DNA of 49,126 bases from Burkholderiales bacterium (GTDB lineage Bacteria; Pseudomonadota; Gammaproteobacteria; Burkholderiales; SG8-39): NCBI GenBank assembly GCA_014860445.1, contig JACZJT010000015.1, positions 1-49,126 of the forward strand, written 5' to 3'. Under the pieces are notes generated by a model. That model worked only from the letters and a program-made list of their open reading frames with translations. It did no database searches and was not told the DNA's origin. Shown here in pieces: positions 14,400 through 44,046 of this stretch. The number at the start of each line of letters is the position of its first letter. Position 1 is the stretch's first letter. Both the position numbers and the translations under genes were made by a program.

Positions 14400-14735
14400 T
14401 TACTTAAGAGCTGCTCTGACTTTTGACAATAATTTTGGCGTTACCTTGGCCTGATGTTCGACCTTGCTGATGTAGGCTTGGGTGACGTTCAGGCGCTTCG
14501 CCAGTTCCTTTTGCGTTACGTTGGCTTTGATGCGTGCCAGCGCAACGGGGCTGTCTACGTAATCCTCCAACGCGAACGGCACATAGTCGGCGTCCTTGTC
14601 CGCCACAGCTTCCAGCCCCGCAACTTCTTCCTCGATTTGTTCTCGCAATGCGTTATAGACAGCGATCGGAATCAATACGAACTCGGGCTTGCCGGAAATG
14701 GACTTGATAATCTGGAGGTTCAAGGGGGCATTCAT
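14400..14735 (-). CDS. Xre-family antitoxin of a RelE-type module
   Basis: This 111-residue protein has a Phd/RelB-like N-terminal part (about 1-50) that should bind the toxin: IIKSISGKPEFVLIPIAVYN, then an acidic helix. A helix-turn-helix of the Xre/Cro type is at about 70-100 (VTQKELAKRLNVTQAYISKV). Its ATG overlaps the toxin stop as ATGA, with GGAGA in front, so the two are translationally coupled. The order toxin then antitoxin is that of higBA-like modules. It probably represses the operon together with the toxin. Confidence 0.88.
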   Translation of the reverse strand: MNAPLNLQIIKSISGKPEFVLIPIAVYNALREQIEEEVAGLEAVADKDADYVPFALEDYVDSPVALARIKANVTQKELAKRLNVTQAYISKVEHQAKVTPKLLSKVRAALK

Positions 14736-14992
14736 TTGTAGGCATCTCCACGGGATTTGATCTTTTCAATCGCAATAATTCGAACGGCGTCCTGCCGGTC
14801 GTAAATGATTCGCCAATCGCCTACTCGCAAACGATGCAATGGCACACCGGCGAGCGCTTTGGTATCCAGCGCCGGGTTGTCCGGGTCGTGTCTGAGCTGG
14901 TTTATCTTCGCCGCCAACCTGGCCCGTTCGTTGCGGGGCAAGCTCCGGAGTTTCTTCTGCGCCTGCCTGCGGATTAAGACCGTATACGGCAT
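14732..14992 (-). CDS. RelE/ParE-family toxin
   Basis: This is an 86-residue RelE-type mRNA interferase or related toxin. The family pattern is complete: YTVLIRRQAQKKLRSLPRNE, then LAGVPLHRLRVGDWRIIYDR and a final VRIIAIEKIKSRGDAYK. Basic and aromatic residues near the C-terminus fit ribosome-dependent RNA cleavage, but the exact target (RelE versus ParE) cannot be told from sequence alone. The predicted promoter again places the transcript start at the ATG. Confidence 0.9.
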   Translation of the reverse strand: MPYTVLIRRQAQKKLRSLPRNERARLAAKINQLRHDPDNPALDTKALAGVPLHRLRVGDWRIIYDRQDAVRIIAIEKIKSRGDAYK

Positions 14993-15134: not shown

Positions 15135-15163
15135 TTGACACTCCCAGGATAGCGGCCTACTCT
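15135..15163 (+). promoter_or_regulatory. Promoter of the EPS MarR-type regulator
   Basis: A consensus TTGACA (15135-15140), a spacer of exactly 17 bases and TACTCT (15158-15163). The transcript would start near 15170, about 24 bases before the GTG start codon. Confidence 0.7.
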
Positions 15164-15165
15164 GC

Positions 15166-15180
15166 GTTCAACGTTTGAAC
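15166..15180. promoter_or_regulatory. Palindromic operator candidate at the regulator's transcription start
   Basis: GTTCAA and TTGAAC form a perfect inverted repeat around CGT, directly after the -10 box and over the predicted transcription start. A MarR dimer bound here would block its own transcription. I see no second full copy in front of the polysaccharide genes. Confidence 0.6.
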
Positions 15181-15193
15181 GTATAGGGCGACC

Positions 15194-15589
15194 GTGACCT
15201 CCGCCACCCAATTGCCGCAAAGTGCGTCTGCGCCGGCCAATATCGATCCATCCATCGAGGACACTCATTTCCGCCTGCTGCGGCTGCTTGAAGCCCGGCC
15301 CGAGCTGAGCCAGCGCGGTCTCGCCCGCGAACTCGGGGCCAGTCTGGGCAAGGTCAACTACTGCCTCAATGCGCTGATCGATACCGGATTCATCAAGGTG
15401 CGCAACTTCCGCGATAACCGCAACAAACTCGGCTACGCATATCTGCTCACGCCGCGCGGCATCGAAAGCAAAGCCGCCATCACCATGCATTTCCTCAAGC
15501 GCAAGATGGGTGAATACGAAGCGCTCAAGGCGGAAATCGAGCAATTGCAGCGCGAAGTCGCCGAATTCGGCGAGCGCAGACCCGAGTGA
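15194..15589 (+). CDS. MarR-family EPS-associated transcriptional regulator
   Basis: This is a 131-residue winged helix-turn-helix protein. After a 20-residue disordered start it reads EDTHFRLLRLLEARPELSQR, then GASLGKVNYCLNALIDTGFIKVRNF, a YLLTPRGIESKA wing region and a C-terminal coiled coil (about 100-125). This matches the short MarR-like family regularly found as first gene of exopolysaccharide loci in proteobacteria. The start is GTG with AGGG in front. It has its own promoter and operator candidate and lies 245 bases before the polysaccharide operon, so it is the likely local regulator. Its ligand is unknown. Confidence 0.88.
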   Translation: MTSATQLPQSASAPANIDPSIEDTHFRLLRLLEARPELSQRGLARELGASLGKVNYCLNALIDTGFIKVRNFRDNRNKLGYAYLLTPRGIESKAAITMHFLKRKMGEYEALKAEIEQLQREVAEFGERRPE

Positions 15590-15694: not shown

Positions 15695-15791
15695 AAAGGT
15701 CTCGGTCTCCCACTGAGGGACATTCGGTTTCGGGGCCACGCGGATTCTGCAGCGGAATTAAACCCATGCGAAACACGCAAGTGTGTTGCAG

Positions 15792-15803
15792 GGCGGTAGC
15801 GTG
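15792..15803 (+). promoter_or_regulatory. ops element (RfaH recruitment site)
   Basis: GGCGGTAGCGTG is an exact match to the 12-base ops (operon polarity suppressor) core, the conserved end of the JUMPstart sequence in front of long enterobacterial surface-polysaccharide operons. RNA polymerase pauses there and RfaH, a NusG paralogue, joins it to prevent premature termination. It lies in the leader, 31 bases before the first structural gene of a 28 kb cluster, which is the position expected for function. An upstream in-frame GTG at 15783 would overlap it; that start is not favoured. Confidence 0.8.
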
Positions 15804-15833: not shown

Positions 15834-16796
15834 ATGCGAACCTATAGCACCCGCAAACGCATCCTCGTAACCGGCGGGGCAGGCTTCCTCGGTTCGCACC
15901 TGTGCGAGCGCCTGCTGGCCGACGGCCATGACGTGTTGTGCGCGGATAATTTTTTCACAGGCACCAAGGACAACATCACCCACCTGTTGCCCAATCCCCA
16001 CTTCGAACTGATGCGCCATGACATCACGTTCCCTTTATTTGTCGAGGTGGATGAAATCTACAATCTCGCCTGCCCGGCATCGCCGATCCACTACCAGTAC
16101 GATCCGGTACAGACCACTAAGACGAGCGTGCACGGCACGATCAACATGCTGGGGCTCGCCAAGCGGGTCAAGGCCAAGATCCTGCAAGCCTCCACAAGTG
16201 AAGTCTACGGCGACCCGCAGGTCCATCCGCAGACTGAAGACTATTGGGGCAACGTGAATCCGATCGGCACCCGCTCCTGTTACGACGAAGGCAAGCGCTG
16301 CGCCGAGACTCTGTTCTTCGACTACTACCGCCAGTACAAGCTCAGGATCAAGGTGGCGCGCATATTCAACACGTATGGCCCGCGCATGCACCCCAACGAC
16401 GGGCGCGTGGTATCCAATTTCATCGTCCAGGCTTTGAAGGGCGACCCAATCACCATCTACGGTGAAGGCAAGCAGACGCGTTCTTTCTGCTATGTGGATG
16501 ACTTGGTCGACGGATTGGTGCGTTTGATGGACTCGCCGGATGAATTCACTGGGCCGGTGAATTTGGGGAATCCGGGGGAATTCACCATTCTGGAACTGGC
16601 GCAAAAAATTGTCGCCTTGACCGGATCCAAATCGCAGATCGAATTCAAACCGCTGCCTTCGGACGACCCCACGCAGCGCAAACCCGATATCGACCTGGCG
16701 AAGCGCACGCTGGCCTGGACGCCGCGCATTGCGTTGGACGATGGGCTTCCCCGGGCCATCGCCTACTTTCGCGACCCCAACGGCGGGGCCACTTAG
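15834..16796 (+). CDS. UDP-glucuronate decarboxylase (UDP-xylose synthase), SDR family
   Basis: This 320-residue extended short-chain dehydrogenase converts UDP-glucuronate to UDP-xylose (or its 4-keto intermediate) in the cytoplasm. The Rossmann motif GGAGFLG is at 14-20 and the catalytic pair is Tyr150-x3-Lys154 in CYDEGK. Family-typical segments include [47 protein letters not shown] and [13 protein letters not shown]. The match is closer to UXS than to dTDP-glucose dehydratases. The ATG at 15834 has GGAGA in front and gives the normal N-terminus. As first gene after the ops element it suggests xylose or a related pentose in the polymer. Confidence 0.92.
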
Positions 16797-16800
16797 CGGC

Positions 16801-19800
16801 ATGTGTGGCATAGCCGGCATCTACGCCTATCGCGAGTCGGCACCGCCCGTAGACGAGCAGGAACTGCTGCACATCCGCGAGCACATGATCAAGCGCGGTC
16901 CCGACGGCGCCGGCCTGTGGATTTCCCCGGACCAGAAAATCGGACTCGCGCACCGGCGCCTGGCCATCATCGATCTTAGTGCTGCCGGCGCGCAGCCGAT
17001 GGCCACGGCCGACGGCAATTTCCGCATCACCTTCAACGGCGAGATCTACAACTACCGCGAACTGCGCAACGAATTGGAAGCGAAGGGATATCGCTTCCGC
17101 TCGAATTCCGACACTGAAGTCCTGCTCCATCTCTATGCGGAGCGCGGACCAGATATGGTGCATGCGCTGCGGGGCATGTACGCGTTTGGAATATGGAATG
17201 AGCGCAAGAAAGGCATGTTTCTCGCGCGCGATCCATTCGGAATAAAGCCACTCTACTACGCCAACGACGGTCGCAGCCTGCGTTTCGCCTCGCAGGTGAA
17301 AGCGCTGCTTAGCGGCGGCGCGATCGGCAATGAAGCAGAACCCGCAGGTCACGCTGGATTCTTCGTCTGGGGTTCCGTTCCAGAACCGTTCACGCTCTAC
17401 AAGGCGATTCGAGCAGTGCCGGCCGGGGCAAGCATATGGGTGGATGGCAACGGACTGCGCGGCCCTACAGCTTTCTTCAGTATTGCAGAGGAATTCGCAA
17501 AGGCACAGGAACAGAATCCCGAGGAATCTGACGGTTCTCGTGCCGAGCGTGCTTTGGCCGCATTGCGTGACAGCGTGCGGCACCACATGATCGCCGACGT
17601 GCCAGTGGGTGCCTTTCTCTCCGCCGGACTCGATTCGGCGACGATCACGGCTTTGGCAAGCGAAGTTGCCGACATTAATTTGCGTACGCTGACACTCGGA
17701 TTCAAAGAGTACCAAGACACGCAAATCGACGAGACTGTACTGGCTGCAGATGTAGCTGCTCGTTACAAGGCGAGCCACGAAACAAGGTGGGTCACGCGCG
17801 GCGATTTCGAAGTCGAACTTCCGCGCATTTTGGAAGCAATGGACCAGCCATCGATCGACGGGATCAACACCTATTTTGTGAGCAAAGCTGCGGCCTACGC
17901 AGGAATGAAAGTCGCGATTTCTGGCCTCGGCGGCGACGAATTGTTCGGCGGCTATCCGAGTTTTCGCGACGTACCTAGAATGCGACGCGCCGCGTCTGCG
18001 TTCAGCGGTCTATCAAGGTTCGGGAAAGCATTTCGATGCGCTCTGTCGCCGCTTGTACGCCAGTTCACCTCGCCCAAGTATGCAGGTGTCATGGAATACG
18101 GCGGAAGTTACGGCGGAGCCTATCTTCTGCGGCGCGCGGTGTTCATGCCTTGGGAGCTACCCAGGTTGATGGATCCCGAGTTGGCCACCCAGGGCTGGGA
18201 GGATTTGCAGCAGTTGACTTTGCTCGAAGGCAGCGCCCGCGGACTTAGCAAGGAACGGCAAATCATTTCTGCGCTTGAACTTAGCTGGTATATGCGCAAC
18301 CAGCTGCTGCGCGACAGCGACTGGGCGGGGATGGCGAATTCTCTCGAGATCCGCGTGCCCTATCTGGATGTTTCGTTCTTTCGGAGTCTCGCACCACTTA
18401 TATCCGGTAAGCGCTCGCCGAGCAAGGTCGATCTGGCGCGCGCACTCAAGCCGCAACTCCCCGATGAAATGATCAGTCGCGCGAAGACCGGCTTCACGGT
18501 GCCGGTTCGGGAATGGTGCATCGACATGTTTGGCAAGCAAGCGGAGGCGCGCGGAATACGCGGCTGGGCGAAACATGTGATGCTGCACGACTCGCCGACA
18601 GCCGCCGATGGCATCCGGACAAAAGCACACGGCAGATCACCGGTTTACGTTTCGTCACCCCAGACGGCGTCCATTCCGTGCGATGCAGATTCCGGCGGAT
18701 CCGAGACACAAGCCTTGGACGAGGCAAGCGCGGCGGCCACACCGAACCTGAACGCTGCGTCAGACGCTATGTCGCACTCCGTTCTTGTCACCCTTGTTCA
18801 CCGATCGCAGGCGTTGCTGATATCTGCCCTCTACGATTGCATCAATGCACTGTTGTACGCCGTGGCGCTCTTGCTGTGGCCCAGGCGGCGACCGGTGTCC
18901 GCGGAACGAGTCTGCGTTTTTCGCATTGGTTATATCGGCGATATCGTCTGCGCGCTGCCTGCCATACGCAGCGTGAGACGCGCCTACCCAGATGCCCAGC
19001 TGACGCTGTTTACCTCGCCGGGTCCCACGGGGCCGGGCGCGGCAGAACTGCTCCCTGGAAACGATTGGATAGACGAAATCCGAGTCTATTATTCTGAAGA
19101 CATCCAATCCATGTCCGGGCGCTTGAAACTGCTGCGTGAATTGCGCGCGCGGCGCTTCGACGTGTGGATCGAGATTCCCAATAACCTTTCCTCGATATCA
19201 CGGCAATTTCGGGACATGTTATTTACCTGGACGGTCGGCGTTCGCTGGGCACGGGGATGGCGGATCAACGCCATCCGTCTTGCTGCACAGGCCCAGTCCG
19301 AGTATCTGCATTTCAGCAACGAAGTGGATCGAACGCTTGACGTCGTCAGACGTGCCGGCATTTCTGCGACGGAAATCGATTTCGGCCTTCCGCGCTTACC
19401 TGCCGCACAGGCACGGATAGACGAATTGCTTTTGGCCGAAGGATTGCAAAGCAAGGTGCTGATCGCGATCGCCCCGGGCGCCAAGCGCTCAACCAATCAC
19501 TGGCCGTCAGAGCGGTTCGCGGAAGTCGGGCGAATTCTTGCCGATTTCAATAGCGCTGTCGTGCTGATTGCGGGTGGTGCGGAAGCAGAACTATGCACAG
19601 GTCTGGCTTCGCAGATAGGTGCGCACGCGCACTCGTTTGCCGGTGAATTGTCGCTTTCAGAATCAATCGAACTGCTGAGGCGGTGCCGGCTGCTCATATG
19701 TGTGGACTCCGGAGTCCAACACCTTGCTGCAGCCGTAGGTACGCCCTGCATATCACTGTTCTCCTTTTGGCAGATGCGCGGAAAATGGCATCCTTACGGG

Positions 19801-20019
19801 TTGCAAAACCTGGTGCTGCAAAAGTGGGTGCCGTGCCACACTTGCCTGCTGGAGTTCTGCACTAACGACAATCGATGCATGAAGGCGATCGAGGTTGAGG
19901 AAGTCGTCGGATTTGCGACTAGGATGCTTGATCTTGGGCAGCAAAGTGTGCGGCCACCCATCTCTGGAGGATTTGCGACCGTGAGCAAGGGCCCAGCGGA
20001 GTTCCGGTCATCCGCATGA
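16801..20019 (+). CDS. Fusion: AsnB-type amidotransferase plus family 9 glycosyltransferase
   Basis: One open frame of 1072 residues. Residues 1 to about 595 are a class II glutamine amidotransferase/asparagine synthase: the nucleophile Cys2 (MCGIAGIYAY), HRRLAIIDLS, FNGEIYNYRE, and the ATP site SAGLDS at 274-279. Residues about 596-656 are a Ser/Ala/Asp-rich linker. From Met657 (position 18769) follows a complete GT9 heptosyltransferase-like protein with an N-terminal hydrophobic helix, FRIGYIGDIVCALPAIRS, APGAKRSTNHWPSERFAEVG and CVDSGVQHLAAAVGTPCISL. The two families normally sit on separate genes. No Shine-Dalgarno sequence is seen before 18769, which favours a true fusion, but a lost stop codon cannot be excluded. 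The AsnB part probably amidates a sugar acid; the GT9 part adds a sugar. The start ATG is 5 bases after the previous stop. Confidence 0.88.
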   Translation: MCGIAGIYAYRESAPPVDEQELLHIREHMIKRGPDGAGLWISPDQKIGLAHRRLAIIDLSAAGAQPMATADGNFRITFNGEIYNYRELRNELEAKGYRFRSNSDTEVLLHLYAERGPDMVHALRGMYAFGIWNERKKGMFLARDPFGIKPLYYANDGRSLRFASQVKALLSGGAIGNEAEPAGHAGFFVWGSVPEPFTLYKAIRAVPAGASIWVDGNGLRGPTAFFSIAEEFAKAQEQNPEESDGSRAERALAALRDSVRHHMIADVPVGAFLSAGLDSATITALASEVADINLRTLTLGFKEYQDTQIDETVLAADVAARYKASHETRWVTRGDFEVELPRILEAMDQPSIDGINTYFVSKAAAYAGMKVAISGLGGDELFGGYPSFRDVPRMRRAASAFSGLSRFGKAFRCALSPLVRQFTSPKYAGVMEYGGSYGGAYLLRRAVFMPWELPRLMDPELATQGWEDLQQLTLLEGSARGLSKERQIISALELSWYMRNQLLRDSDWAGMANSLEIRVPYLDVSFFRSLAPLISGKRSPSKVDLARALKPQLPDEMISRAKTGFTVPVREWCIDMFGKQAEARGIRGWAKHVMLHDSPTAADGIRTKAHGRSPVYVSSPQTASIPCDADSGGSETQALDEASAAATPNLNAASDAMSHSVLVTLVHRSQALLISALYDCINALLYAVALLLWPRRRPVSAERVCVFRIGYIGDIVCALPAIRSVRRAYPDAQLTLFTSPGPTGPGAAELLPGNDWIDEIRVYYSEDIQSMSGRLKLLRELRARRFDVWIEIPNNLSSISRQFRDMLFTWTVGVRWARGWRINAIRLAAQAQSEYLHFSNEVDRTLDVVRRAGISATEIDFGLPRLPAAQARIDELLLAEGLQSKVLIAIAPGAKRSTNHWPSERFAEVGRILADFNSAVVLIAGGAEAELCTGLASQIGAHAHSFAGELSLSESIELLRRCRLLICVDSGVQHLAAAVGTPCISLFSFWQMRGKWHPYGLQNLVLQKWVPCHTCLLEFCTNDNRCMKAIEVEEVVGFATRMLDLGQQSVRPPISGGFATVSKGPAEFRSSA

Positions 20020-20828
20020 AACTCATCATTGAACCCGGCCGAGCAGCAAGGAATTACTGGGGTGACCTTTGGCGCTACCGCGAGTTGATGTACATCCTCG
20101 CGTGGCGGGACCTGGCAGTGCGCTATAAGCAGACCGCGATTGGTGTTGCATGGGCGCTGATCCGACCCGGACTAACGATGCTGGTGTTCGTTGTTTTCCG
20201 GCGTCTCGTGGGCATCGAGCCCGGCAGCGTGCCGGAGCCGATCCTGGTACTGGCGGCTGTACTGCCCTGGCAGTTTTTTTCCGCGGCACTTTCGGAGTCA
20301 TCCGGCAGCCTGATCGGCAACGCCAACTTGATTTCAAAGATCTACTTTCCACGCCTGATAATTCCCTGCGCTGCCGTGGCCACGAGCCTTGTCGATTTCC
20401 TGATCACGCTCGGCATGCTTGCGCTGCTGATGCTCTGGTACGGGTTTGCGCCGGGCTGGCAACTGCTCGCGCTGCCGCTGTTCGTGCTGCTGGCCTTCGG
20501 CCTGTCGGTGGGATCGGGCCTGTTCTTTGCGGCGCTCAATGTTGAGTACCGCGATTTCCGCTACGTCGTGCCATTCATCGTGCAGTTCGGGCTGTTTATT
20601 TCGCCGATTGCGTTTACGACGGCCAACGTGCCGGAACGCTGGCGCGCGCTGTACGCCCTAAACCCGATGGTGGGGATCATAGACGGCTTCCGCTGGTCCG
20701 TGCTCGACGGCAGCACGCCCCTTGATCTTCAGGCGGTGGGCGCCGCGGCAGTAGTCACCGTTTCTGTTTTGATGGTGGGAGTGTGGTACTTCCGCCGCAT
20801 GGAGCGCAGCTTTGCGGACGTAATCTAG
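20016..20828 (+). CDS. wzm: ABC-2 type polysaccharide export permease (Wzm-like)
   Basis: This 270-residue inner-membrane protein has about six membrane helices and the ABC-2 pattern: an amphipathic start with [20 protein letters not shown], then [20 protein letters not shown] and a final [20 protein letters not shown]. It forms the channel through which a lipid-linked glycan leaves the cytoplasm, powered by the next gene product. Its ATG overlaps the previous stop (ATGA), so translation is coupled. Confidence 0.93.
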
Positions 20829-20830
20829 GT

Positions 20831-22165
20831 ATGAGCGACGTAATCATCCGGGCGGAGGGTATCGGCAAGAAGTACCGAATCCGCCATGAACGGGCGGAAC
20901 GCTATACGGCGCTGCGCGACGTGATCGCGGAGAAGGTGCGGGGTTTGTTTATTCGGGGTAAATCGAAAGCCATTGGTATTGCCAATTTAAATAACTCAAC
21001 AGACACTTTGATGGCGTCTGGCAAGGATGTGGAAAATACAAAGTCAGACTTTCCTTCCGATTGTAGGGTGTCGAAAGTGCCTTCGGTCGAGGATTTCTGG
21101 GCTTTGCGGGATGTGTCTTTCGAAGTTAATCGAGGCGATGTGGTCGGTATCATCGGCCGCAACGGCGCCGGCAAGTCCACGCTGCTCAAGATCCTCAGCC
21201 GAATCACTGAGCCCACCGAGGGACGGGTGGAACTCGACGGACGCGTCGCAAGCCTGCTGGAGGTGGGCACGGGGTTCCATCCGGAGCTGACCGGGCGCGA
21301 GAATATCTTCCTGAACGGCGCGATCCTCGGCATGACGCGCGCGGAGGTTCGGCGCAAGTTCGATGAGATTGTCGCGTTTGCGGAGGTGGAGCAATTTCTC
21401 GATACACCGGTCAAACGCTATTCGTCGGGGATGTATGTGAGGCTGGCGTTCTCGGTAGCGGCGCACTTGGAGCCGGAAATCCTGGTAGTAGACGAGGTGC
21501 TCGCGGTGGGAGATGCCGAGTTCCAGAAGAAGTGCCTAGGCAAGATGCGCGAGGTTAGCAAGGGGGGGCGGACGGTGTTGTTCGTGAGCCACAACATGGC
21601 CGCCGTTCAAGCTCTTTGTTCGAGCGCTATCTCCTTAGACAGCGGAAGAATCATATTCGATGGGCAATCCGCTGAGGCTGTCTCGCGCTACCTCAATGCT
21701 TCACCTTCCCATAGGAGGCGATCGGTCAACCATGCCATTAGCTCTTCCCTCTCGTTAACCCGATTCGAGGCCGATCCCTTGAACGTTCGGCAAAATGCCC
21801 AGTTGAATTTCAATATCGAATTGCTGGCGACACGCGAGGAAGTGGTATCTGACTTGGCCCTGATTATCCACTCGGCACTGGGCGAACGTGCGGCCCTGAT
21901 AGATCTTCGGTCGCAGAGAGGCCCATATCGGCTGAGAGCAGGCGGCAAACTCGCTCTTCGAACCATTATCTCTGCGGTTCCTTTCGTCGAAGCGGATTTC
22001 AACCTTGGCCTTTATATCAATTCCAATTCTGTCTCCGAAAGTTTCCCGAGCCTTCTCACCTTTACCGTCATGCCTGGCGAATCAAATGATGGCGTTGTGC
22101 CACGCGATCCGCAATTCAGAGGGTTGGTCGAATTGGGCGCATTCGTGGAAAGTCGTGTCAGCTGA
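20831..22165 (+). CDS. wzt: ABC transporter ATPase with C-terminal glycan-binding domain (Wzt-like)
   Basis: This is a 444-residue partner of the permease. The nucleotide-binding domain has Walker A GRNGAGKS at 109-116, signature YSSGM at 197-201 and Walker B VVDE with Asp221 and Glu222. The C-terminal part (about 255-444) is a beta-rich domain in the place of the Wzt carbohydrate-binding module that recognises the finished chain end. Two oddities: about 55 extra residues (38-95) separate the N-terminal strand from Walker A, and both this insert and the C-terminal domain are visibly poorer in GC than the ATPase core. This points to a mosaic gene. The ATG at 20831 is two bases after the permease stop; an in-frame start further upstream would overlap it and adds nothing conserved. 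Confidence 0.92.
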
Positions 22166-22207
22166 GCGCGGATTCCACGCGCGGTCCTTCTCTAGGATGG
22201 TGTCACA

Positions 22208-23374
22208 GTGCGCGTTCTCTTAAGCTGTCTGCAAAGCCGTCGTCGTCATCCAATCCCGGCGTATGATTTTTGGCGCGATTATTTCGTCGAAGGGTGTAGT
22301 GAGGCGGGTATCGAATGCTTGGAGGTCCCGGGTTTGGACTGGGCTGAAGGCCTCGTTTCGCTTCCAGGGAAACAACTTGAAGAGTGGCGCTCCCGAACCT
22401 GGGAAACCGTTCTCAAATTTGTTCGAAAAGAACGGGACCAGAAGCCGATTCAGTTTTTCCTAAGCTATCTCTATCCAAGACAAATCGACGTTGGAGCGAT
22501 TGCTGAGCTACAGCGGATTGGCGTCCCGTGCGTGAATTTCTTCTGCGATAACGTTCGCGAGTTTCACAAGATGCCCGTTGAATATCGTCCTTTTTCCCTA
22601 CATTGGGTGCCTGAATTTGAAGCCCTCCCGCTCTATCGAAATGCCGGTCTTCCGCACCTACATATGCCCATGCCGTGCTGGGTCCCGATCGAATTGCGCT
22701 GCGTCCCTGCCGCGGAGACTGAGGCGCCCACTTTCATTGGGTCTGCCGATATATTACGTCGCGATTTGCTCGGCCGAGCTGTACGCGCAGGTGCGGATCT
22801 TGTAATCCGTGGAACTGGTTGGACGCCTACGTCCGACTCGCTGAACTCAGAAGTTCCGACCAGGCGACTTGGCGCGATCCTTCGCAATCAGATGGCGTTT
22901 GTGCGCACCCACGGACTTGCGGGCTTCTGTCGCAAAATCGAGAATCATTTCATCCATCTTGACCCGCCGACTATTAGCGAAAACACGCTGATGCCCCAGG
23001 TATCGCGGGATGAGTATGTTCGCATCACGCGTGAGGCCATAGTTGCGATCGGTATCAATCGCGTTCCGGCGACGCGTGTTTCCAATCGGCATCCACTCAC
23101 ATACTCCCGTTTGCGCGACATCGAGGCCCCGATGTTGGGTGCTTGCTATCTGACGGAGTGGACGGCAGGACTCGGGGAGCTTTACGAATTGGGTAAAGAA
23201 ATTGAGAGCTACCGGACTCCCGAGGAACTACAATTCAAGATTGATGAGCTAAAAAAGGACGGGCCCCGCCGGAAGATAATGCGCCAGCGTGCGCAGCGTC
23301 GGGCGCTCGCGGACCACACCGCGGTACGGAGTCTTATTCGAATAGGCGAGCGTCTAGGAGCGAAAAGCGCCTAA
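22208..23374 (+). CDS. CgeB-like glycosyltransferase
   Basis: This 388-residue protein is like the CgeB/DUF3880 glycosyltransferases. The N-terminal half has a Rossmann-like start (RVLLSCLQSRRRHPI) and VPCVNFFCDNVREFHKMPVE. The C-terminal half has TFIGSADILRRDLLGRAVRAG, a RLRDIEAPMLGACYLTEW segment that stands in the usual nucleotide-sugar position, and the closing YRTPEELQFKIDELKKD. The donor and acceptor are unknown. GTG is the only reasonable start. It overlaps the next gene by one base (TAATG). Confidence 0.8.
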   Translation: MRVLLSCLQSRRRHPIPAYDFWRDYFVEGCSEAGIECLEVPGLDWAEGLVSLPGKQLEEWRSRTWETVLKFVRKERDQKPIQFFLSYLYPRQIDVGAIAELQRIGVPCVNFFCDNVREFHKMPVEYRPFSLHWVPEFEALPLYRNAGLPHLHMPMPCWVPIELRCVPAAETEAPTFIGSADILRRDLLGRAVRAGADLVIRGTGWTPTSDSLNSEVPTRRLGAILRNQMAFVRTHGLAGFCRKIENHFIHLDPPTISENTLMPQVSRDEYVRITREAIVAIGINRVPATRVSNRHPLTYSRLRDIEAPMLGACYLTEWTAGLGELYELGKEIESYRTPEELQFKIDELKKDGPRRKIMRQRAQRRALADHTAVRSLIRIGERLGAKSA

Positions 23375-24129
23375 TGAGACTCGAACTACTCTGGAACCTG
23401 CGGTTGCTTTGTGAACGCCTTGCGACAGCATCGCTCCGGCAACGGCGACTTCGGAAATTGCTTAATACGCCCGCCCGTAACTTGTCGCTTGGACACATCG
23501 AGTCCCTGGAACTACTTGAGATGGCGGCCGTAAAGGGCATCAACGTAATTTACGACATCGGAGCAAATGTCGGTACCTGGACGCTCCTCGCCAAGACTGT
23601 TATTCCAGGGGCGGTCGTAGAGGCATTCGAACCCCTCCCGGCACATCAGGATGGATTCGCAAAAACCTGCGGCGGCATGTCTGGAATCACCCTGCATCCT
23701 GTCGCGCTCGGCCCGAAGAACGCGACGATGCCGCTGCGCGTCACAAGCTTTTCAGATGCGTCCAGCATATTACCTATTGCGAAGGCAAGCCATGACCATT
23801 TCGGATTGACGGAAGTCTGCCAGGTGCCCATACCGGTCCGCCGATTGGATGATTACTGTCTTACGGAGAATTTCCGTTTTGCGGACTTGATTAAGGTAGA
23901 CGTGCAAGGATTTGAACTCGAAGTGTTATCAGGGGGCATTTCAGTACTGGCTCACACGAAGGCTTTGATTGTCGAAGTTAGCTTCGTAAAACTGTACGAA
24001 AATCAATGCACATTTCCAGAGTTATGCAGCTTTCTGGAAGAACAAGATTTCAGAATCCATGCCTTCGGTGCGTCAACACCAGTCGGCACACCGTTGGTTC
24101 AAGCGGATGTATTGTTTTTGAAATGCTAG
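23374..24129 (+). CDS. FkbM-family methyltransferase 1
   Basis: This is a 251-residue SAM-dependent methyltransferase of the FkbM family, usually acting on sugar hydroxyls. SAM motif YDIGANVGTW starts at residue 60, followed by the acidic VEAFEPLPAHQ. The family-typical LIKVDVQGFELEVLSGG is near 171-187 and YENQCTFPELCSFLEEQDF near the end. It is the first of four FkbM enzymes in the cluster; each presumably methylates a different position or residue. Confidence 0.9.
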   Translation: MRLELLWNLRLLCERLATASLRQRRLRKLLNTPARNLSLGHIESLELLEMAAVKGINVIYDIGANVGTWTLLAKTVIPGAVVEAFEPLPAHQDGFAKTCGGMSGITLHPVALGPKNATMPLRVTSFSDASSILPIAKASHDHFGLTEVCQVPIPVRRLDDYCLTENFRFADLIKVDVQGFELEVLSGGISVLAHTKALIVEVSFVKLYENQCTFPELCSFLEEQDFRIHAFGASTPVGTPLVQADVLFLKC

Positions 24130-24270
24130 GTTCGCGCAGCACCGTCTGATGCTTTATTGCGCCAACGTGCTCGCGTTCCCCAAGGTAGCAATTCGGCAGG
24201 AAGTTGCAATTGCGATGGGATATGCATATGTCCCGGTTGCGCGACCCACGAATCAATTCGGAGAGGCATC

Positions 24271-25059
24271 TTGAATCCGATCTGGTTCTATCGCAATTTG
24301 ATCGAGTGCTGGCGCTATAAGGCGAGTTTGGCCGATTTTATAAAGCGGATGCGATGGGTCTACGCCAAGAAGCACCCAATAAATGCAGTCCCCAAACAAC
24401 AGGAAATCGGATTTCTGTATCCTAGCCCAATCGGCGGAATTCGACTGGCGGTACGGGCAAACGACGGCTCGGATAGTTTTATATTCGGAGAAGTGTTTCA
24501 GCACAACTATTACCGCCTAGGTCTGCCGACGCAACCAAAAACCATCTTGGATGTCGGCGCAAATACCGGTTTTACTGCGGTCTACTTTGCGCGAACATAT
24601 ACCTCCGCTCGACTGGCGTGTGTTGAGCCAATTCCGGCCAATGTAAGGGTTCTGAGAAGAAATCTGGAACTCAACGCCGTAACCGCAGATGTATTTCCCG
24701 TAGCGATTACGGTGGAGGATGGGCGAGTCTTGATGGAGATTCTTGCCAAAGATTACGGACATCGCATATTTGACGGCACATCATCTGCGCGCGTTGAAAC
24801 GCTAGAGGTTGACGCCCTGTCCATTAAAACGATTCAAAAGCGACTTGGGTGGAGTCGAATAGGGCTACTCAAAGTCGACATTGAAGGGTACGAAAAGAAA
24901 CTGTTTTCTGCCGACTGTTCCTGGCTATGGTTGGTCGATGCCATGTGCATTGAATGCCACGAAGGATTCGGAGAGGCGGATTTGGAGAGAATTGCTGCGC
25001 AATTTGATTTCCTTTCTCCTCTTCGGCTACCGGGCATCTGGCTACTTCGCCGGAGATAG
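24271..25059 (+). CDS. FkbM-family methyltransferase 2
   Basis: This is a 262-residue SAM-dependent methyltransferase. The SAM motif is ILDVGANTGFTAVYFA with Asp94, then CVEPIPANVRVLRRNLELN, and the FkbM signature LLKVDIEGYEKKLF near residue 201. The open frame reaches back to 24157, but the extra residues are unlike the family. A TTG at 24271 with GGAGAGG four bases before it gives a natural N-terminus (NPIWFYRNLIECW), so it is preferred. The 140-base space before it holds no gene that I can support. Confidence 0.82.
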   Translation: MNPIWFYRNLIECWRYKASLADFIKRMRWVYAKKHPINAVPKQQEIGFLYPSPIGGIRLAVRANDGSDSFIFGEVFQHNYYRLGLPTQPKTILDVGANTGFTAVYFARTYTSARLACVEPIPANVRVLRRNLELNAVTADVFPVAITVEDGRVLMEILAKDYGHRIFDGTSSARVETLEVDALSIKTIQKRLGWSRIGLLKVDIEGYEKKLFSADCSWLWLVDAMCIECHEGFGEADLERIAAQFDFLSPLRLPGIWLLRRR

Positions 25060-25069
25060 GGTTCGGTAC

Positions 25070-26059
25070 ATGGGAAACGAAAGAATATGCTTGTATTATC
25101 GAGTTGAGCCTGAGCGCGATCGCTGGGCTCCGGGGGACAGGTTCATCCGACCCATCGTCCGCCGGCTTGTTCGCGGCAAGCGTCGCTTAGGCGGGGTCGA
25201 TAAAGTATTTTTCAATCTGTGTCTGGGCCTAGACCGACTTGGCATTCGTTACGAAACAAACATTCCATTCAAGCGGCTTCGTGCGGACGATCGCGTAGCG
25301 GTGCTCGGACGTGGCCGCCATTCACTGCAAGGGTACGATCGCACGAACCCGATCGTGGCAGGCATTGGATTGATGGGGCATCCAGGCGAGTGGCCCACAT
25401 TATGTACGGACTATCCGGTAGTTCGCTACCTGCAGCATTCGGATTGGGCGAACGACGTCTATAAGCCCTACTTTGGGAAGCGGTGCGGGATATGGCCAGT
25501 TGGCATAAATACACATGCATGGACACCATCTGCGGTACCTAAGGACCTTGATTTCCTTTTCTACGACAAAGTCCAATGGAATCGCGAGCGCAATCAGCGG
25601 GAACTCATTCAACCCATCAAGGACGTCTTGCGGCGGCGCAGAATGAAATTTGCCGAGATACGATATGGCGGTTACGACGAAAGCGACTTTCGTGGACTTC
25701 TCTCCCGCAGCAAAGCGATGATCTTTCTGTCGGAAAGCGAAAGCCAGGGATTGGCATATCAGGAATGCATGTCAAGCGGCGTACCGGTACTCGCGTGGGA
25801 TCAAGGATGGTGGCTTGATCCATCCCGATTCAAGTGGGGAAATGCGGACGTGCGGGCGACGAGTGTTCCATATTTTGACGACAACTGCGGGAGCACGTTC
25901 CGAAACCTTGATGAGTTTGAAACCAGCCTCGATCGTTTCCTCGACCGACTCCACCTGCAGGAGTTTGATCCTCGCGCCTACATTCTCAAGAATCTAACAC
26001 TGGAGCATTGCTCGCAACGATTCGTTGACATTCTTCGCAGGGATTTGGGGACGTCATGA
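25070..26059 (+). CDS. Glycosyltransferase, GT4-like fold
   Basis: This is a 329-residue protein. The N-terminal half is poorly conserved (ICLYYRVEPERDRWAPGDRF, then FFNLCLGLDRLGIRYETNIP). The C-terminal half has the GT-B donor-binding pattern: a KSYD-like strand, SKAMIFLSESESQGLAYQEC with the glutamate expected of retaining GT4 enzymes, and MSSGVPVLAWDQGWW. The frame is open further upstream into the previous gene, but the ATG at 25070 gives a sensible start 11 bases after that gene's stop. The donor is unknown. Confidence 0.72.
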   Translation: MGNERICLYYRVEPERDRWAPGDRFIRPIVRRLVRGKRRLGGVDKVFFNLCLGLDRLGIRYETNIPFKRLRADDRVAVLGRGRHSLQGYDRTNPIVAGIGLMGHPGEWPTLCTDYPVVRYLQHSDWANDVYKPYFGKRCGIWPVGINTHAWTPSAVPKDLDFLFYDKVQWNRERNQRELIQPIKDVLRRRRMKFAEIRYGGYDESDFRGLLSRSKAMIFLSESESQGLAYQECMSSGVPVLAWDQGWWLDPSRFKWGNADVRATSVPYFDDNCGSTFRNLDEFETSLDRFLDRLHLQEFDPRAYILKNLTLEHCSQRFVDILRRDLGTS

Positions 26060-26940
26060 CCGCGTTACGTCCGATTGCACAACGCATCCGCCACTTGCCC
26101 GGGCTCGAGCGAGCAGAGTGGTTTTGGCGGCTTTTGCGCAAACCGTATCATTGGCTTCTAAACCGTGGTGGTCGTGGCGTGAAGGTCATGGTCGGCGGAA
26201 ACTCAGCGGTATGGATGCCACCCGAGTTTTCCGGTGGGTACTGGGAACATTACGAACCGGAGGCTGTTGCAAAGCTATCAGAGTGGGTGCGGCACCATCC
26301 CGGTGGCACTGTGCTAGACATAGGGAGTTCGACCGGCATTTTCAGCGCGATTGCGCTTTTTGCCGAGCCCTCCGTCGAGGTTGTCGCGTTTGATTCAGAC
26401 CTTGCGAGTCTCGCTGCGGTGCGCCGCATGTGCCAACATGCTCAAGGCGACAGGCTGCGATTGGTGTATGGCTTTGTCGCGCGGACACCTACCGACGCGT
26501 CATCGCTTGACGCTGCTGCGAAAGCAACGGAAGTCGCTCTGGAACGCGCTGGAGATCGCGGTGATTTCGGTACAACGCGATATATCTGCCTGATCGATAC
26601 AAATGTCGACTCAATCCCTACTCGTCGGCTTGATGACCTGTTTCTCTCAGAAGACACCACAGGGCGCGCGATGCTAATCAAGTGTGACGTGGAGGGCGCG
26701 GAACTGCATGTTCTTTCTGGCGCCTCTACTTTTCTCAGGATTACAAGACCAGACCTATTACTGAGCGTGCACCCGCCGGCGTTGCCAAGCTATGGGCATA
26801 CAGTGGAGGACGTGCACGCGTTTCTGAAAAACCATGGATATGACGTGCGGTGTATTGCCGTCGACCATGAAGAGCATTGGTGGTGCCGGTGGAATCCGGA
26901 TCTGCCAGAAGCCGCGATTTCCGTTAGCGGAAAGTTGTGA
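26056..26940 (+). CDS. FkbM-family methyltransferase 3
   Basis: This is a 294-residue SAM-dependent methyltransferase. SAM motif VLDIGSSTGIFSAIA has Asp88; the usual Asn of GAN is replaced by Ser. The signature LIKCDVEGAELHVLSGAST is near 208 and LLSVHPPALPSYGHTVEDV near 235. Its ATG overlaps the previous stop (ATGA), and its own stop overlaps the next start (GTGA), so this part of the operon is tightly coupled. Confidence 0.88.
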   Translation: MTALRPIAQRIRHLPGLERAEWFWRLLRKPYHWLLNRGGRGVKVMVGGNSAVWMPPEFSGGYWEHYEPEAVAKLSEWVRHHPGGTVLDIGSSTGIFSAIALFAEPSVEVVAFDSDLASLAAVRRMCQHAQGDRLRLVYGFVARTPTDASSLDAAAKATEVALERAGDRGDFGTTRYICLIDTNVDSIPTRRLDDLFLSEDTTGRAMLIKCDVEGAELHVLSGASTFLRITRPDLLLSVHPPALPSYGHTVEDVHAFLKNHGYDVRCIAVDHEEHWWCRWNPDLPEAAISVSGKL

Positions 26941-27755
26941 AGAAACTGCTCAGATCAAGTGTGAACGCGATTCCGTCGGGGATGCGGAATTGGATCAAGT
27001 ATATTCCGGGCCTGGCCGAAACCCAGCGTTGGCTGGTAAGAAACATTTTATCCGACGAGGCATTTATACATACGATCAACAGTGGACCAGCCGCTGGATT
27101 ACGATTCGAGGTGAGCCTTCCGCTGGACAAAGCCATTTGGATGGGAACCTACGAATCTGAATTTACGGAGGCCATTTGCAAAAGCGTCGGCCGAGGCGAC
27201 GTCTGTTACGACATTGGGGGCTATCGGGGTTATATGTCAGGCGCAATGGCACTGGCCGGAGCATCCAGCGTCATTGTGTTTGAGCCGTTGCCCGCTAATC
27301 AGGAGGCGTTAAAACGTCTCTGCCGACTTAATCCGGGCCTTAGTATCGAACTCAAGCCTATCGCGATTGGAAATCTCGATAACACATTTCGCCTCCGCGT
27401 GATGCCCGATGCCAGCATGGGCAAGCTGATTTCGAGCACATTTCAAGTTGGCGCAACAGCAACAGGCGAAATCGAAGTGCCCGTTCGCAGACTTGACTCG
27501 CTTGTGCAAAGACAGGAGATTCCGCCGCCTCAGGTCGTCAAGATCGATGTGGAAGGCGCCGAATTAGATGTCTTATGCGGAGCGAACGGCATTCTAAGCG
27601 ACCATCGTCCACACATCTTCCTGGAGGCCCACTCTGCCGCACTTGATCAAGCGTGCTCGCAATTGCTAATCAGCCATGGTTATGAAATTCGAAGTCTAGA
27701 ATCATATCCGTGCGGAGAAGAGCAAGCGCGCCACTTGATTGCCTCTCCACCATGA
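26937..27755 (+). CDS. FkbM-family methyltransferase 4
   Basis: This is a 272-residue SAM-dependent methyltransferase with a GTG start. The SAM motif is CYDIGGYRGYMSGAMA with Asp92, where the usual GANxG is GYRG. Next come FEPLPANQEALKRL and the signature VVKIDVEGAELDVLCGANG near 201. The C-terminus has FLEAHSAALDQACSQLLISH. The four FkbM proteins in this cluster are clearly related but not close copies, so they were probably acquired separately rather than by recent duplication. Confidence 0.88.
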   Translation: MKKLLRSSVNAIPSGMRNWIKYIPGLAETQRWLVRNILSDEAFIHTINSGPAAGLRFEVSLPLDKAIWMGTYESEFTEAICKSVGRGDVCYDIGGYRGYMSGAMALAGASSVIVFEPLPANQEALKRLCRLNPGLSIELKPIAIGNLDNTFRLRVMPDASMGKLISSTFQVGATATGEIEVPVRRLDSLVQRQEIPPPQVVKIDVEGAELDVLCGANGILSDHRPHIFLEAHSAALDQACSQLLISHGYEIRSLESYPCGEEQARHLIASPP

Positions 27756-29032
27756 GGGTGTCGGAAAAAGAGCAGGGCATGTCGTCGATCAGCAAAATTG
27801 CGATTTTGACAGGTGCGTCGCTCGCATGGAATCCGCGAGCGATTAAAGAGGCAACGACACTGGCCCATGCGGGTTTTGATGTGATCGTCTACGGTTCTGG
27901 AACGGACCGTAATCGGTTAGAGGTCGATCAAGCGCTCGCACGTCGTAACGGATTTGCCTTTGAGTCGGTAGAATCATCGCTGAAGATCAATCTTGTACAT
28001 GAACTCTGCTCAATGTGGCGGCGGATTTGCGCTCGCGTTGGCCGGGAAACATTCAAATTCCTGCGTATTGAGAGTCACTGGCAATTCGGTCCGGCCATTG
28101 CGAGGCTCTGCCGTCAAGCAAATGCTGCGAATGCCGATTATTACATTGCGCACCTCGAACAGGGAGCATGGGTTGGCGCGAAGCTGATGCGACAAGGCAG
28201 GCGCGTAGGGATTGATATGGAGGATTGGTATTCTGAAGACCTCCCGCCGCAAGCCAGGAAAAGCCGGCCAATTGTGTCGCTACGCGCTTTGGAGCGACAG
28301 TTGTTGCAACAGGGCGCGCACTCTACTTGTCCTTCAGACGCGATGAGCGTAGCGCTGGCACGCGAGTACGCCTGCAACCCGCCGGCGGTGATCTACAATG
28401 TGTTCCCTTGGTCCGATCGCACTCTCATCGATGGTTTGTCGAAGGACAAAAGCGACAGCCGAATCCTATCGATTCATTGGTATTCCCAGACAATCGGTCC
28501 GGGTCGAGGATTGGAAGATCTACTCGCGGCATTGCCGCGCCTGGAGCATAGGGCCGAGATCCACCTTCGCGGGAATCCTGTCTCAGGTTTCGCTGAATGG
28601 TTTGCAGATCACGTTCCGGAAACGTGGCGCTCGTACGTCTTCGTGCATGACCTCGTCCCGAACGAAGAACTACTATCGCGTATAGCCGAGCACGACATAG
28701 GCTTCGCCGGCGAAATGAAATACTGCAAGAGTCGGGATCTGACAATTACCAACAAGATATTGCATTACCTGCTCGCGGGGCTCGCTGTAGTCGCCAGCGA
28801 TACTGCCGGGCAGCAGGAAGTCGCGGTGAAAGCTCGAGGTGCAGTATTTCTATATCCGTCCGGTGACCCAATGGCCCTATCGCACAGGCTCAACGCGCTT
28901 CTCGAATCGAAGGAACGGTTACAACTCGCGAAGACCGCTGCATTGCAAGCCGCAGAACAAACGTTTTGTTGGGAACGACAAGAAAGCGCATTGCTCGGGA
29001 CCGTTCGACGCGCACTAGGATCGATTTCGTGA
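27752..29032 (+). CDS. Family 4-like glycosyltransferase
   Basis: This is a 426-residue GT-B protein. The N-terminal half contains KIAILTGASLAWNPRAIKEA, like GT4 enzymes that open with a short strand and a substrate loop, and HLEQGAWVGAKLM. The C-terminal half has SIHWYSQTIGPGRGLEDLL, HLRGNPVSGFAEWF and ILHYLLAGLAVVASDTAGQQ, the donor-binding region. The ATG overlaps the previous stop (ATGA); a second ATG at 27779 is possible. The donor sugar is unknown. Confidence 0.82.
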   Translation: MRVSEKEQGMSSISKIAILTGASLAWNPRAIKEATTLAHAGFDVIVYGSGTDRNRLEVDQALARRNGFAFESVESSLKINLVHELCSMWRRICARVGRETFKFLRIESHWQFGPAIARLCRQANAANADYYIAHLEQGAWVGAKLMRQGRRVGIDMEDWYSEDLPPQARKSRPIVSLRALERQLLQQGAHSTCPSDAMSVALAREYACNPPAVIYNVFPWSDRTLIDGLSKDKSDSRILSIHWYSQTIGPGRGLEDLLAALPRLEHRAEIHLRGNPVSGFAEWFADHVPETWRSYVFVHDLVPNEELLSRIAEHDIGFAGEMKYCKSRDLTITNKILHYLLAGLAVVASDTAGQQEVAVKARGAVFLYPSGDPMALSHRLNALLESKERLQLAKTAALQAAEQTFCWERQESALLGTVRRALGSIS

Positions 29033-30150
29033 TTTTAGAGACTATCCCGAAAGACGTCGAGGACGCCACCCTGGCCGGGCACACTGAATTTGCAGACGAA
29101 AGCAAGTTGCACAGGATCTCCACAAGAAACGAACATGTTTTCGGTCTAGACGCGCTTCGTTTCTTCGCAGCGCTTTGGGTGGTCTTTAGCCACTTGGGCC
29201 CGGTTCCGGTTTTCGCCGAAGTGGATCGGTCGCATCCGATAGGTTTTGTGCTCCACGGCGCCTGGGGCGTCCTCCACTCTGGTCCTGCTGCTGTTATTGT
29301 GTTCTTTGTGATATCGGGTTTCTGCATTCACTATCCGTATACTGGCGGTGCAGCGTTTCGATGTATTCCCTATCTGATTCGGCGATATGTCCGTATCGGC
29401 ATTCCAATGGCTGCGGCGATGATTCTTACGGAATTGGCCGATATTGATTCGCTCAAGTTCTTTGATGCAATCCTATGGAGTCTGGTTGCCGAGCTGATGT
29501 ATTACACGTCTTATCCGCTGATACGACTACTTAAGGATAGATTGGGTATGGATGCTATAGTCGCGGGCGCTTTTGTCTTATCGCTTGCTGTCGTCCTTAC
29601 TGATCCCGCCGCCAAAGGTTACGGCGTTTACGGCTGGAGACTCAATTGGCTTCTCGGCCTACCCTGTTGGCTTTTGGGTGTAAGCCTCGCGGAGACTTGG
29701 CAACGTCGTACAGTTGCTGCATTGTCCGGCGAGACGAAAGACAGCGTATGGAAGTGGCGGACCCTTGTCTGGGCGTCCAGTTCAATGTGTCTGGCACTCA
29801 ATTTTCATTCCCCGATAGGGTATCCGTGGACCCTCAACCTCTTTGCGATCATCGCGTATGCGTGGATAGTGCGCGAGATTCGTCGAGCCAACGGATCAAA
29901 GCGTCCGTGGCGAGCCCTGGAATGGGCAGGTGGGTGGAGCTATTCGCTTTACCTATGCCACATGTTTGCGACGCGCTTGTACTCACGTCTGGGCGCTTCC
30001 CTGGAGGCAGGACCAATTTTGGATTGGTTCCTTCGGATCGCATTCGTGCTGGGGACAAGCTACGCGTTTTATCTTCTCGTCGAACTCCCGGCGCACTCAC
30101 TTGCCCGTCGGCTTGCGAGAGTGCGGGGTTTAAATCCGTTACGGGCTTAG
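29029..30150 (+). CDS. Acyltransferase family 3 (OafA-like) membrane protein
   Basis: This 373-residue membrane protein has about ten hydrophobic segments. The family start GLDALRFFAALWVVFSHLG is near residue 41, with the conserved Arg and His. FFVISGFCIHYPYTGG, WSLVAELMYYTSYPLIR and GWSYSLYLCHMFATRLYSRL follow. Such proteins transfer acetyl or other acyl groups to surface sugars. The GTG start overlaps the previous stop (GTGA). The next gene, convergent, is an SGNH hydrolase; in other systems this domain is often linked or fused to such acyltransferases. Confidence 0.9.
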   Translation: MILETIPKDVEDATLAGHTEFADESKLHRISTRNEHVFGLDALRFFAALWVVFSHLGPVPVFAEVDRSHPIGFVLHGAWGVLHSGPAAVIVFFVISGFCIHYPYTGGAAFRCIPYLIRRYVRIGIPMAAAMILTELADIDSLKFFDAILWSLVAELMYYTSYPLIRLLKDRLGMDAIVAGAFVLSLAVVLTDPAAKGYGVYGWRLNWLLGLPCWLLGVSLAETWQRRTVAALSGETKDSVWKWRTLVWASSSMCLALNFHSPIGYPWTLNLFAIIAYAWIVREIRRANGSKRPWRALEWAGGWSYSLYLCHMFATRLYSRLGASLEAGPILDWFLRIAFVLGTSYAFYLLVELPAHSLARRLARVRGLNPLRA

Positions 30151-30157
30151 GCACCGC

Positions 30158-30916: not shown

Positions 30917-31030
30917 TAGTATTCTGCACGGACTGCGTGCTTTGCATCGAAGATAACGTAGCTTACTACGACTATTACGGGTTCGGCGGGCTCCATGCCG
31001 TGGAGCCGTCCTCCCAGTCAAACCCATGAT

Positions 31031-32547: not shown

Positions 32548-32566
32548 GCTCGAGATATTCGCGGCC

Positions 32567-33466: not shown

Positions 33467-33624
33467 TGTGGATTTGGAGTACCTGTATTTTGATCGTTGG
33501 ACCGGAATCGCCTTCTCGACGCACGATCGTTTATGGAAAATCGCGCCTGCCAGCGTGTGTGTGAGATCTTTGAACCTAGAACGCCATGACGCGCGACGGT
33601 AACTGCGCGGTGAATACGATTTAG

Positions 33625-34938: not shown

Positions 34939-35007
34939 CTTCGGCCTACCGCACGTGAGTGCAAGCCTTGGCTTTGGTTCAAGGCCGCATACTTTAATCG
35001 CTCCGCA

Positions 35008-36216: not shown

Positions 36217-36246
36217 ACTGGAACTACCGGAACGCATGTGATTCCG

Positions 36247-40021: not shown

Positions 40022-40056
40022 ACAGCTATTGTTTGCATGTTTCTGGAAACTGGTAA

Positions 40057-40896: not shown

Positions 40897-40902
40897 GTTT
40901 GC

Positions 40903-44025: not shown

Positions 44026-44046
44026 ACTGTAGTCATCGACAGATCA

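Follow-up and report, generated by a model that had tools for sequence, protein, structure and literature searches.

Introduction

The closest described counterpart of the leader reported here is the RfaH/ops/JUMPstart system of E. coli (Rfam RF01707). There, RNA polymerase is described as pausing at U11 of ops, the opsPEC as distinct from an RNA-hairpin pause, and the cycle as one of ops and RfaH alone (passages of PMC11001881). A conserved stem-loop among JUMPstart elements was described by Weinberg et al. (PMC2864571), and RfaH is reported to suppress hairpin-stabilised pausing (PMC6391919). RNA duplexes that form 11-12 nt behind the 3' end are reported to make pauses about 10-fold longer, and in the NusG pauses of B. 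subtilis a hairpin lying 11-12 nt upstream is described as combined with a motif in the non-template DNA (PMC12288461). LoaP of Bacillus velezensis is a NusG paralogue associated with a leader RNA hairpin and long biosynthetic operons (PMC12691694). RfaH genes near envelope biogenesis genes were described in mBio in 2020 (PMC7593976), among them the cluster CL4 with a helix-turn-helix regulator; section 11 of that paper states that the detailed recruitment mode is known for E. coli RfaH only, and it gives no leader signals for its RfaH clusters. Stem-loops have been described elsewhere in a capsule cluster (PMC3438125). In the passages of the open PMC literature that were covered, we found no function reported for a hairpin beside ops and no hairpin-ops leader in Betaproteobacteria.

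Here we analyse a leader in a stretch of 49,126 nucleotides from a Burkholderiales bacterium, hereafter the window; genomes, contigs and sequence stretches are given with the handles G, C and L, the window's own genome being G000. As in E. coli, an exact 12-base ops has a polysaccharide cluster downstream and an RfaH-family protein is encoded elsewhere in the genome. The JUMPstart of E. coli K-12 (60 bits, L140) has the 5-bp Rfam stem followed by GGGCGGUAGCGUG, and the identical bases follow the stem here, but the two stem sequences are unrelated and the window scores below the Rfam cut-off. The window differs further in that a MarR_EPS gene and operator precede the leader and in that rfaH is linked to a presumed target of its own. 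The B. subtilis pauses are described with a T-rich motif and the housekeeping NusG, whereas here we find ops and a specialist RfaH; for LoaP, the passages cited describe neither ops nor a hairpin pause, whereas the window has an exact ops and its genome an RfaH match.

An exact ops element precedes an interrupted polysaccharide cluster

A sequence-only reading of the window had pointed to an ops element at the head of a 28-kb polysaccharide cluster. The element, GGCGGTAGCGTG, at 15792-15803 on the forward strand, matches ops exactly, and the window has no second exact copy; from the pause of the E. coli element, its pause base U11 is predicted at 15802. At up to two mismatches the window has 7 matches, where 6.1 are expected, and only the exact one is unusual. 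Genome-wide (4.6 Mb, 73 contigs) there are three exact copies, and the reversed control does not occur. Besides the window copy, one lies on C49 at 20152, downstream of rfaH, and one on C56 within a 549-residue open frame with a TPS secretion domain, where folding found no adjoining hairpin. Across 60 genomes (our own and 59 relatives) the 12-mer occurred 51 times and its reversed control 113 times (summed by hand). Since the control was the commoner of the two, we dropped the 12-mer count as evidence; the 12 bases of ops alone are not diagnostic and prove little.

The first biosynthesis gene (15834-16796, forward strand) belongs by profile match to the NAD-dependent epimerase/dehydratase family. 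Its ATG at 15834 lies 30 bases past ops, with GGAG ahead of it by eye. The open reading frame as listed opens at GTG 15783, in frame with this ATG. We regard ATG 15834 as the likelier start, and if it is the start, ops lies in an untranslated leader.

The cluster continues on the forward strand from 16729 to 30150 with an amidotransferase-heptosyltransferase-like fusion, an ABC exporter pair, FkbM methyltransferases, glycosyltransferases and an acyltransferase, and from 30995 to 44025 with methyltransferases, glycosyltransferases, a carbamoyltransferase and a match to an O-unit polymerase model below its cut-off. Between these parts a GDSL-like hydrolase gene (PF13472, 44.2 bits, cut-off 32.9) occupies 30158-31027 on the reverse strand, so the earlier description of the 28-kb cluster needs correcting: it is not uninterrupted. 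This leaves about 0.85 kb (30151-30994) without a sense gene. A transcript common to both halves would have to cross it, and Rho would there be expected to act in the absence of RfaH. A consensus scan of the forward strand from 29800 to 45000 found no sigma-70-like promoter. The terminator that had been placed at 44047 is borne out by sequence and fold: an A-run, GCGAC-AGATG-GTCGC and a T-run at 44047-44075 on the forward strand, with a fold z of -3.5, which the consensus scan did not list. In the fusion, a single frame (16729-20019) encodes both an asparagine-synthase-type amidotransferase and a heptosyltransferase-like domain; G007 (L190) has the amidotransferase as a separate gene of 617 residues.

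An RfaH-family protein is encoded on another contig

The element had led the sequence-only reading to predict a NusG-like specialist factor encoded elsewhere, and a PF02357 search of the genome found two NusG-domain proteins, on C49 and C59. The C59 protein is NusG (225 bits). The C49 protein scored 159.5 bits on the RfaH model TIGR01955 (curated cut-off 144.5) and 137.6 on PRK09014 (cut-off 124), against 45.5 on the NusG model (cut-off 135.7) and 57 on the LoaP model NF033641, under its cut-off of 125. Among proteins of solved structure it is matched best by RfaH entries (E 6e-24), and 57 of 153 positions are identical to E. coli RfaH. It keeps K10, R40, E48, T66, T68, T72, R73, F130 and R138 of the E. 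coli protein and changes H20 to N, R11 to P, R16 to V, Y8 to C and I93 to M. The side chains of E. coli RfaH described as directly contacting ops are K10, H20, R23 and R73 (PMC5995543); the C49 protein keeps K10, R73 and, by eye, R23, and has N for H20. For the C-terminal domain, which in RfaH is autoinhibited, alpha-helical and able to refold, an AlphaFold2 model of the G004 relative (90% identical to the C49 protein) from a 10-row alignment is of low confidence and was given no weight, with a mean pLDDT of 68.7 and block means of at most 54 from residue 111 on, where it has a helix at 144-157 and short strands.

On C49, rfaH comes after a second MarR_EPS gene, and about 140 bases separate the end of rfaH from the second ops, which lies downstream. 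Past this ops, the C49 cluster begins with an SLBB/Poly_export exporter and a chain-length-type protein. Given this place between a second MarR_EPS gene and a second hairpin-ops, the C49 rfaH probably serves its neighbouring export cluster and, at a distance, the window cluster. A 2026 preprint describes rfaH beside long operons as often constitutively active, ops-independent and without some ops contacts (PMC13015549). This pattern would count against recruitment by ops here, as the C49 rfaH adjoins a long operon, yet by its sequence the protein appears to keep K10, R23 and R73.

Small frames lie between ops and the SLBB exporter on C49 (L002, 1676-2586), resembling ParD, DUF7387 (just below cut-off) and HicA. 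In G005 (C216; L047/L066) the final 30 residues of rfaH recur at 90% identity between rfaH and ops, a partial duplication. One genome, G120 (L236, L250), encodes three proteins of the RfaH family, with about 4 kb between two of the genes.

A MarR_EPS regulator has a putative operator at its own promoter

A MarR-type gene with its own operator had also been proposed upstream of the leader. The gene at 15194-15589 (forward strand) scored 154 bits on TIGR04176 (cut-off 88). A candidate sigma-70-like promoter precedes it at 15135-15163, with TTGACA at 15135-15140, a 17-nt spacer and TACTCT at 15158-15163; the consensus promoter scan did not list it. Directly after the second hexamer stands a putative operator of the form TGCGTTCA-N4-TTGAACGCA, with one mismatch in the window, where the palindrome reads TGCGTTCAACGTTTGAACGTA (15163-15183). 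TTGACA, the second hexamer and the palindrome align across five genus loci of the MarR2 type, the window included.

At up to one mismatch, TGCGTTCA-N4-TTGAACGCA occurred at 8 distinct sites in the 60 genomes (reversed control 1), seven of them just upstream of MarR_EPS genes over the cut-off and the eighth upstream of a MarR_EPS fragment in G001. This version of the operator is absent from 13 of the 20 MarR_EPS genes over the cut-off; MarR1-type genes, such as that on C49, have TACAAT and TTTTGAAC in common instead. The comparison supports a MarR_EPS operator at the regulator's own promoter, as the earlier reading had it, and this candidate site is unlike the leader hairpin described below.

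Seven aligned leaders, inspected by eye, share no promoter in the interval from marR to the hairpin; this suggests that marR, leader and cluster are transcribed together. A terminator-like match between marR and ops (15705-15721) counts against such co-transcription. Just upstream of marR, the reverse strand has a pair of genes (14400-14992) for a helix-turn-helix protein (PF01381) and a ParE-type toxin (PF05016).

A hairpin ends one base before ops

Folding of the window leader showed a 24-nt stem-loop at 15767-15790 (forward strand), TGCGAAACAC-GCAA-GTGTGTTGCA, with one internal A.G mismatch, whose 3' end is one base short of ops; the distance from the last base of the stem to U11 is 12 nt. 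The structured leader that had been proposed is thus confirmed for this stem-loop, while the whole 101-nt leader is unremarkable against shuffles (z -1.3). The minimum-energy fold of the window adds CCC/GGG pairs that extend the stem into the first two bases of ops, an extension not common to most other sites. On the Rfam JUMPstart model RF01707 the window leader scored 21.1 bits, under the gathering cut-off of 35; four of seven other element loci scored 21.5-23.6 bits and three had no match. Most hairpins of the window's kind, here called class I, have an ATG at the foot (window 15766-15768). A leader peptide starting there was considered and rejected, as changes of loop length in the alignment break any common frame.

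The hairpin and ops occur together within the genus

We compared 14 genomes of the genus, our own included. A 20-mer spanning the junction of hairpin and ops gave, at up to two mismatches, 14 matches in 8 of the 14 genomes and none when reversed. The hairpin is present at 12 of these matches, spread over 7 genomes, and missing at the second ops of G001 and at a two-mismatch site in G003. The window and C49 copies both read ATGCGAAACAC-NNNN-GTGTNTTGCAG-GGCGGTAGCGTG. The 20-mer, like the pattern of 3' arm plus ops used below, includes part of the class I 3' arm and cannot prove that arm's conservation. Three data sets are free of this selection: the exact 12-mer sites, the rfaH loci and an ops-blind hairpin search. 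The last found 13 distinct places in the genus (reversed control 2). All 10 hairpins at up to one mismatch lead straight into ops on the same strand, as does one of the three at two mismatches. Conservation in related leaders, on which the sequence-only reading had made its proposal depend, was found, with the element in 7 of 14 genus genomes and at rfaH loci of other families.

A MarR_EPS gene lies just upstream at 10 of the 12 genus elements, with rfaH as well at five of those 10. Downstream genes could be followed at 10 of the 12, the contigs of G012 C194 and G004 C257 ending too soon, and all 10 have sugar-nucleotide or polysaccharide export genes: an epimerase in the window and at G004 C186, G007 C58 and G001 C152, a UDP-sugar dehydrogenase at G010 C146, an aminotransferase about 4.6 kb downstream at G001 C66, and an SLBB exporter at G000 C49, G005, G007 C410 and G010 C30. 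An RfaH over the cut-off is encoded in five of the seven genomes with hairpin-ops (G000, G004, G005, G007 and G010) and in none of the seven without. The other two, G001 (170 contigs) and G012 (260 contigs), are each 96% complete and have the element and MarR_EPS, yet no match to RfaH in them rises above the NusG background.

Hairpins of differing sequence precede ops in other lineages

We found an RfaH match (E<=1e-25) in 44 of 399 genomes of the order. The 14-mer GGCGGTAGCGTGCC is present in 14 of the 44 with a match and in 21 of the 355 others (Fisher 2e-6, shared ancestry uncorrected), its reversed control in 3 and 49, respectively (hand tally); the remaining 30 RfaH-bearing genomes have no such 14-mer. 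The class I covariance model, run on the 399 genomes with stricter filters, gave 6 strong sites in 4 genomes, and weaker matches pointed to other hairpin classes, which were later found independently through rfaH.

The rfaH-locus set comprises 45 of 47 rfaH places (G000 and G045 omitted) with up to about 4 kb on each side, and hairpins were ignored in its selection. Exact ops is present in 18 of the 45 stretches (17 distinct sites), always in the sense of rfaH and never antisense; one site lies 2.4 kb upstream of rfaH and the others downstream. The other 27 stretches, several of them cut by contig ends, have no exact ops. The bases before ops group into a few classes, whose frequencies are uncorrected for shared ancestry: the class I stem in G322 and G351; TGCYG..CRGYA in G041, G077, G120, G161, G233, G248, G291 and G418; GTGCC..GGCAT in G324 and G353, with G266 similar; TTGGA..TCCAA in G414 and G271; and one further class in G121, with a related form in G320 that came from the covariance-model search.

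Class I, in which 95% of cells are paired, has a strongly conserved stem sequence, its 3' arm being partly fixed by the search patterns, and a loop of variable length. Two of its 10 pairs change on both sides, which 21 of 500 shuffles matched, a modest covariation. The 11 class II sequences have every one of their 55 pair cells paired; one position shows U-G, C-G and U-A, and no pair is changed on both sides relative to the commonest pair.

To compare spacing, we forced the number of bases between the hairpin's 3' base and ops (k) at 20 distinct sites; four of these (L047, L051, L056 and L059) were fetched by the 20-mer but are also rfaH loci, and one is E. coli. The mean hairpin energy was -7.2 kcal/mol at k=1, -5.6 at k=2 (mostly the k=1 stem minus one pair), -1.9 at k=0 and -2.5 at k=3, and shuffles at k=1 gave -0.6 kcal/mol (sd 0.4). 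The best k was 1 at 14 sites, 0 at three, 3 at two and 8 at one.

From the 51 exact 12-mer places in the 60 genomes, 33 were taken regardless of hairpin. A k=1 hairpin is present at all eight with a MarR_EPS or RfaH neighbour (-3.9 to -12.7 kcal/mol) and at three of the 25 without (L025, L030 and L022); neighbours, here and around the genus elements and ops-blind hairpins above, were called by tblastn with three own-genome query proteins over limited stretches and can be missed. L025 and L030 are class I elements that head epimerase clusters, with no rfaH or MarR_EPS found nearby. Twelve representatives were refolded at two lengths, and seven (L001, L226, L016, L229, L244, L170 and L100) showed k=1 pairing at both, with 0 to 0.08 of shuffles as good. 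G271, G320 and E. coli showed it at one length; the E. coli hairpin is weak, about 0.11 of shuffles being as good. G121 and Chromohalobacter (L112) had no hairpin one base from ops at either folded length.

Searched with one genome per species, the pattern of 3' arm plus ops occurred in 26 stretches, whose titles include Betaproteobacteria, Burkholderiales, Nitrosomonadales, Competibacteraceae and Chromohalobacter. Some of them have a different 5' arm, and that of Chromohalobacter does not pair at this place. Another class I element, L105, comes from a metagenome assembly titled Bordetella parapertussis, where it follows an rfaH match at a distance of about 75 bases. Hairpin sequences thus differ by lineage, and their place is mostly constant, 12 nt before U11. 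The working element is probably larger than ops and consists of a hairpin and ops at near-fixed spacing, with an exchangeable hairpin sequence.

Discussion

We consider it likely that the window leader is the loading leader of an RfaH-dependent polysaccharide operon, with a MarR-repressed promoter, a hairpin followed by ops, and RfaH supplied in trans from C49. The promoter before marR would be repressed by MarR_EPS at the operator over the start site, and marR, leader and cluster would form one transcript. Having passed marR, polymerase would transcribe the hairpin and then ops. With polymerase at U11 (15802), 12 nt would separate the base of the hairpin from the RNA 3' end, as for a pause hairpin in the exit channel; from this observed spacing, the hairpin should lengthen the ops pause. 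Ops bases of the non-template strand would then recruit the C49 RfaH, as its family and most of its contact residues suggest. If it behaves like E. coli RfaH, it would stay on polymerase, keep NusG and Rho away, and carry transcription through the cluster, the gap at 30151-30994 included, towards 44047-44075. A pause held by the hairpin could be released by the arriving RfaH, since RfaH is reported to suppress hairpin-stabilised pausing. The description of the E. coli opsPEC as unlike a hairpin pause, and as requiring ops and RfaH alone, counts against this part of the model.

The analysis supports the overall interpretation of the sequence-only reading, in which transcription kept up by RfaH to 44047 stays a prediction; of the two outcomes that this reading had named as refuting it, lack of a NusG paralogue and lack of conservation in related leaders, neither was observed. 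New here are the identity and location of the RfaH gene, support for the MarR operator, the break in the cluster and, probably, a combined element of hairpin and ops; the hairpin one base from ops, the C49 rfaH upstream of a second ops and the reverse-strand gene in the cluster were absent from that reading.

The explanation that competes best is that ops alone recruits RfaH, and that the hairpin blocks backtracking of the RfaH-bound complex, protects the cluster RNA, or prevents base-pairing between upstream RNA and the ops transcript. For E. coli, ops and RfaH are described as determining the cycle, with backtracking as the limit on escape from ops (PMC11001881); a hairpin just behind polymerase would hinder backtracking, and some sites have no hairpin at this place. 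RNA protection would need no one-base spacing, however, and a constant offset of unrelated hairpins in several lineages fits a position measured from the pause site. We hold this explanation to be unlikely, if still the one to be taken most seriously after our own.

Less probable again, and in our judgement doubtful, is that a protein, either this RfaH or a partner, binds and reads the hairpin RNA in the manner of LoaP. LoaP is reported to need its hairpin (PMC12691694), and the class I stem is strongly conserved with a variable loop, its 3' arm being partly fixed by the search. Against this, quite different hairpins take the same place at rfaH loci of other families, and the LoaP hairpin is reported to give no discernible pause (PMC12691694).

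The palindrome at 15767-15790 could also be a DNA operator of MarR_EPS rather than an RNA hairpin, being palindromic and usually near MarR_EPS genes. We disfavour this as very improbable: MarR_EPS has another palindrome at its promoter; within the genus the hairpin at up to one mismatch is never without ops, has one orientation and varies in loop length; and hairpins without a MarR_EPS gene found in the stretch occur at L025, L030 and several gammaproteobacterial loci. A chance match to ops, as the C56 copy is and as a 12-mer not above its reversed control in 60 genomes would allow, is rejected, with hairpin-ops in seven genus genomes, mostly with MarR_EPS just upstream, and no match to the reversed 20-mer.

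Returning to the loading leader, the presence of a hairpin one base from ops across lineages, with differing sequences, suggests a further part of the loading signal. Tentatively, and with less than even confidence, we propose that in many Proteobacteria RfaH loading is read from an exit-channel hairpin 12 nt behind the pause together with the non-template ops bases. The hairpin would hold polymerase until scarce RfaH arrives, RfaH would relieve the pausing, and lineages would swap the hairpin sequence while keeping the distance; the enterobacterial JUMPstart would be one instance. In practice, chance matches swamp the 12 bases alone outside enterobacteria, and RfaH targets there can be sought by a simple rule: ops with an adjoining hairpin, near MarR_EPS or rfaH.

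Two loci have ops in duplicate. On G001 C66 (L186), two exact ops 879 bases apart (78782 and 77903) follow one MarR_EPS gene, with a class I hairpin at the first only, and G045 C28 (L185) has two hairpin-ops elements 1026 bases apart.
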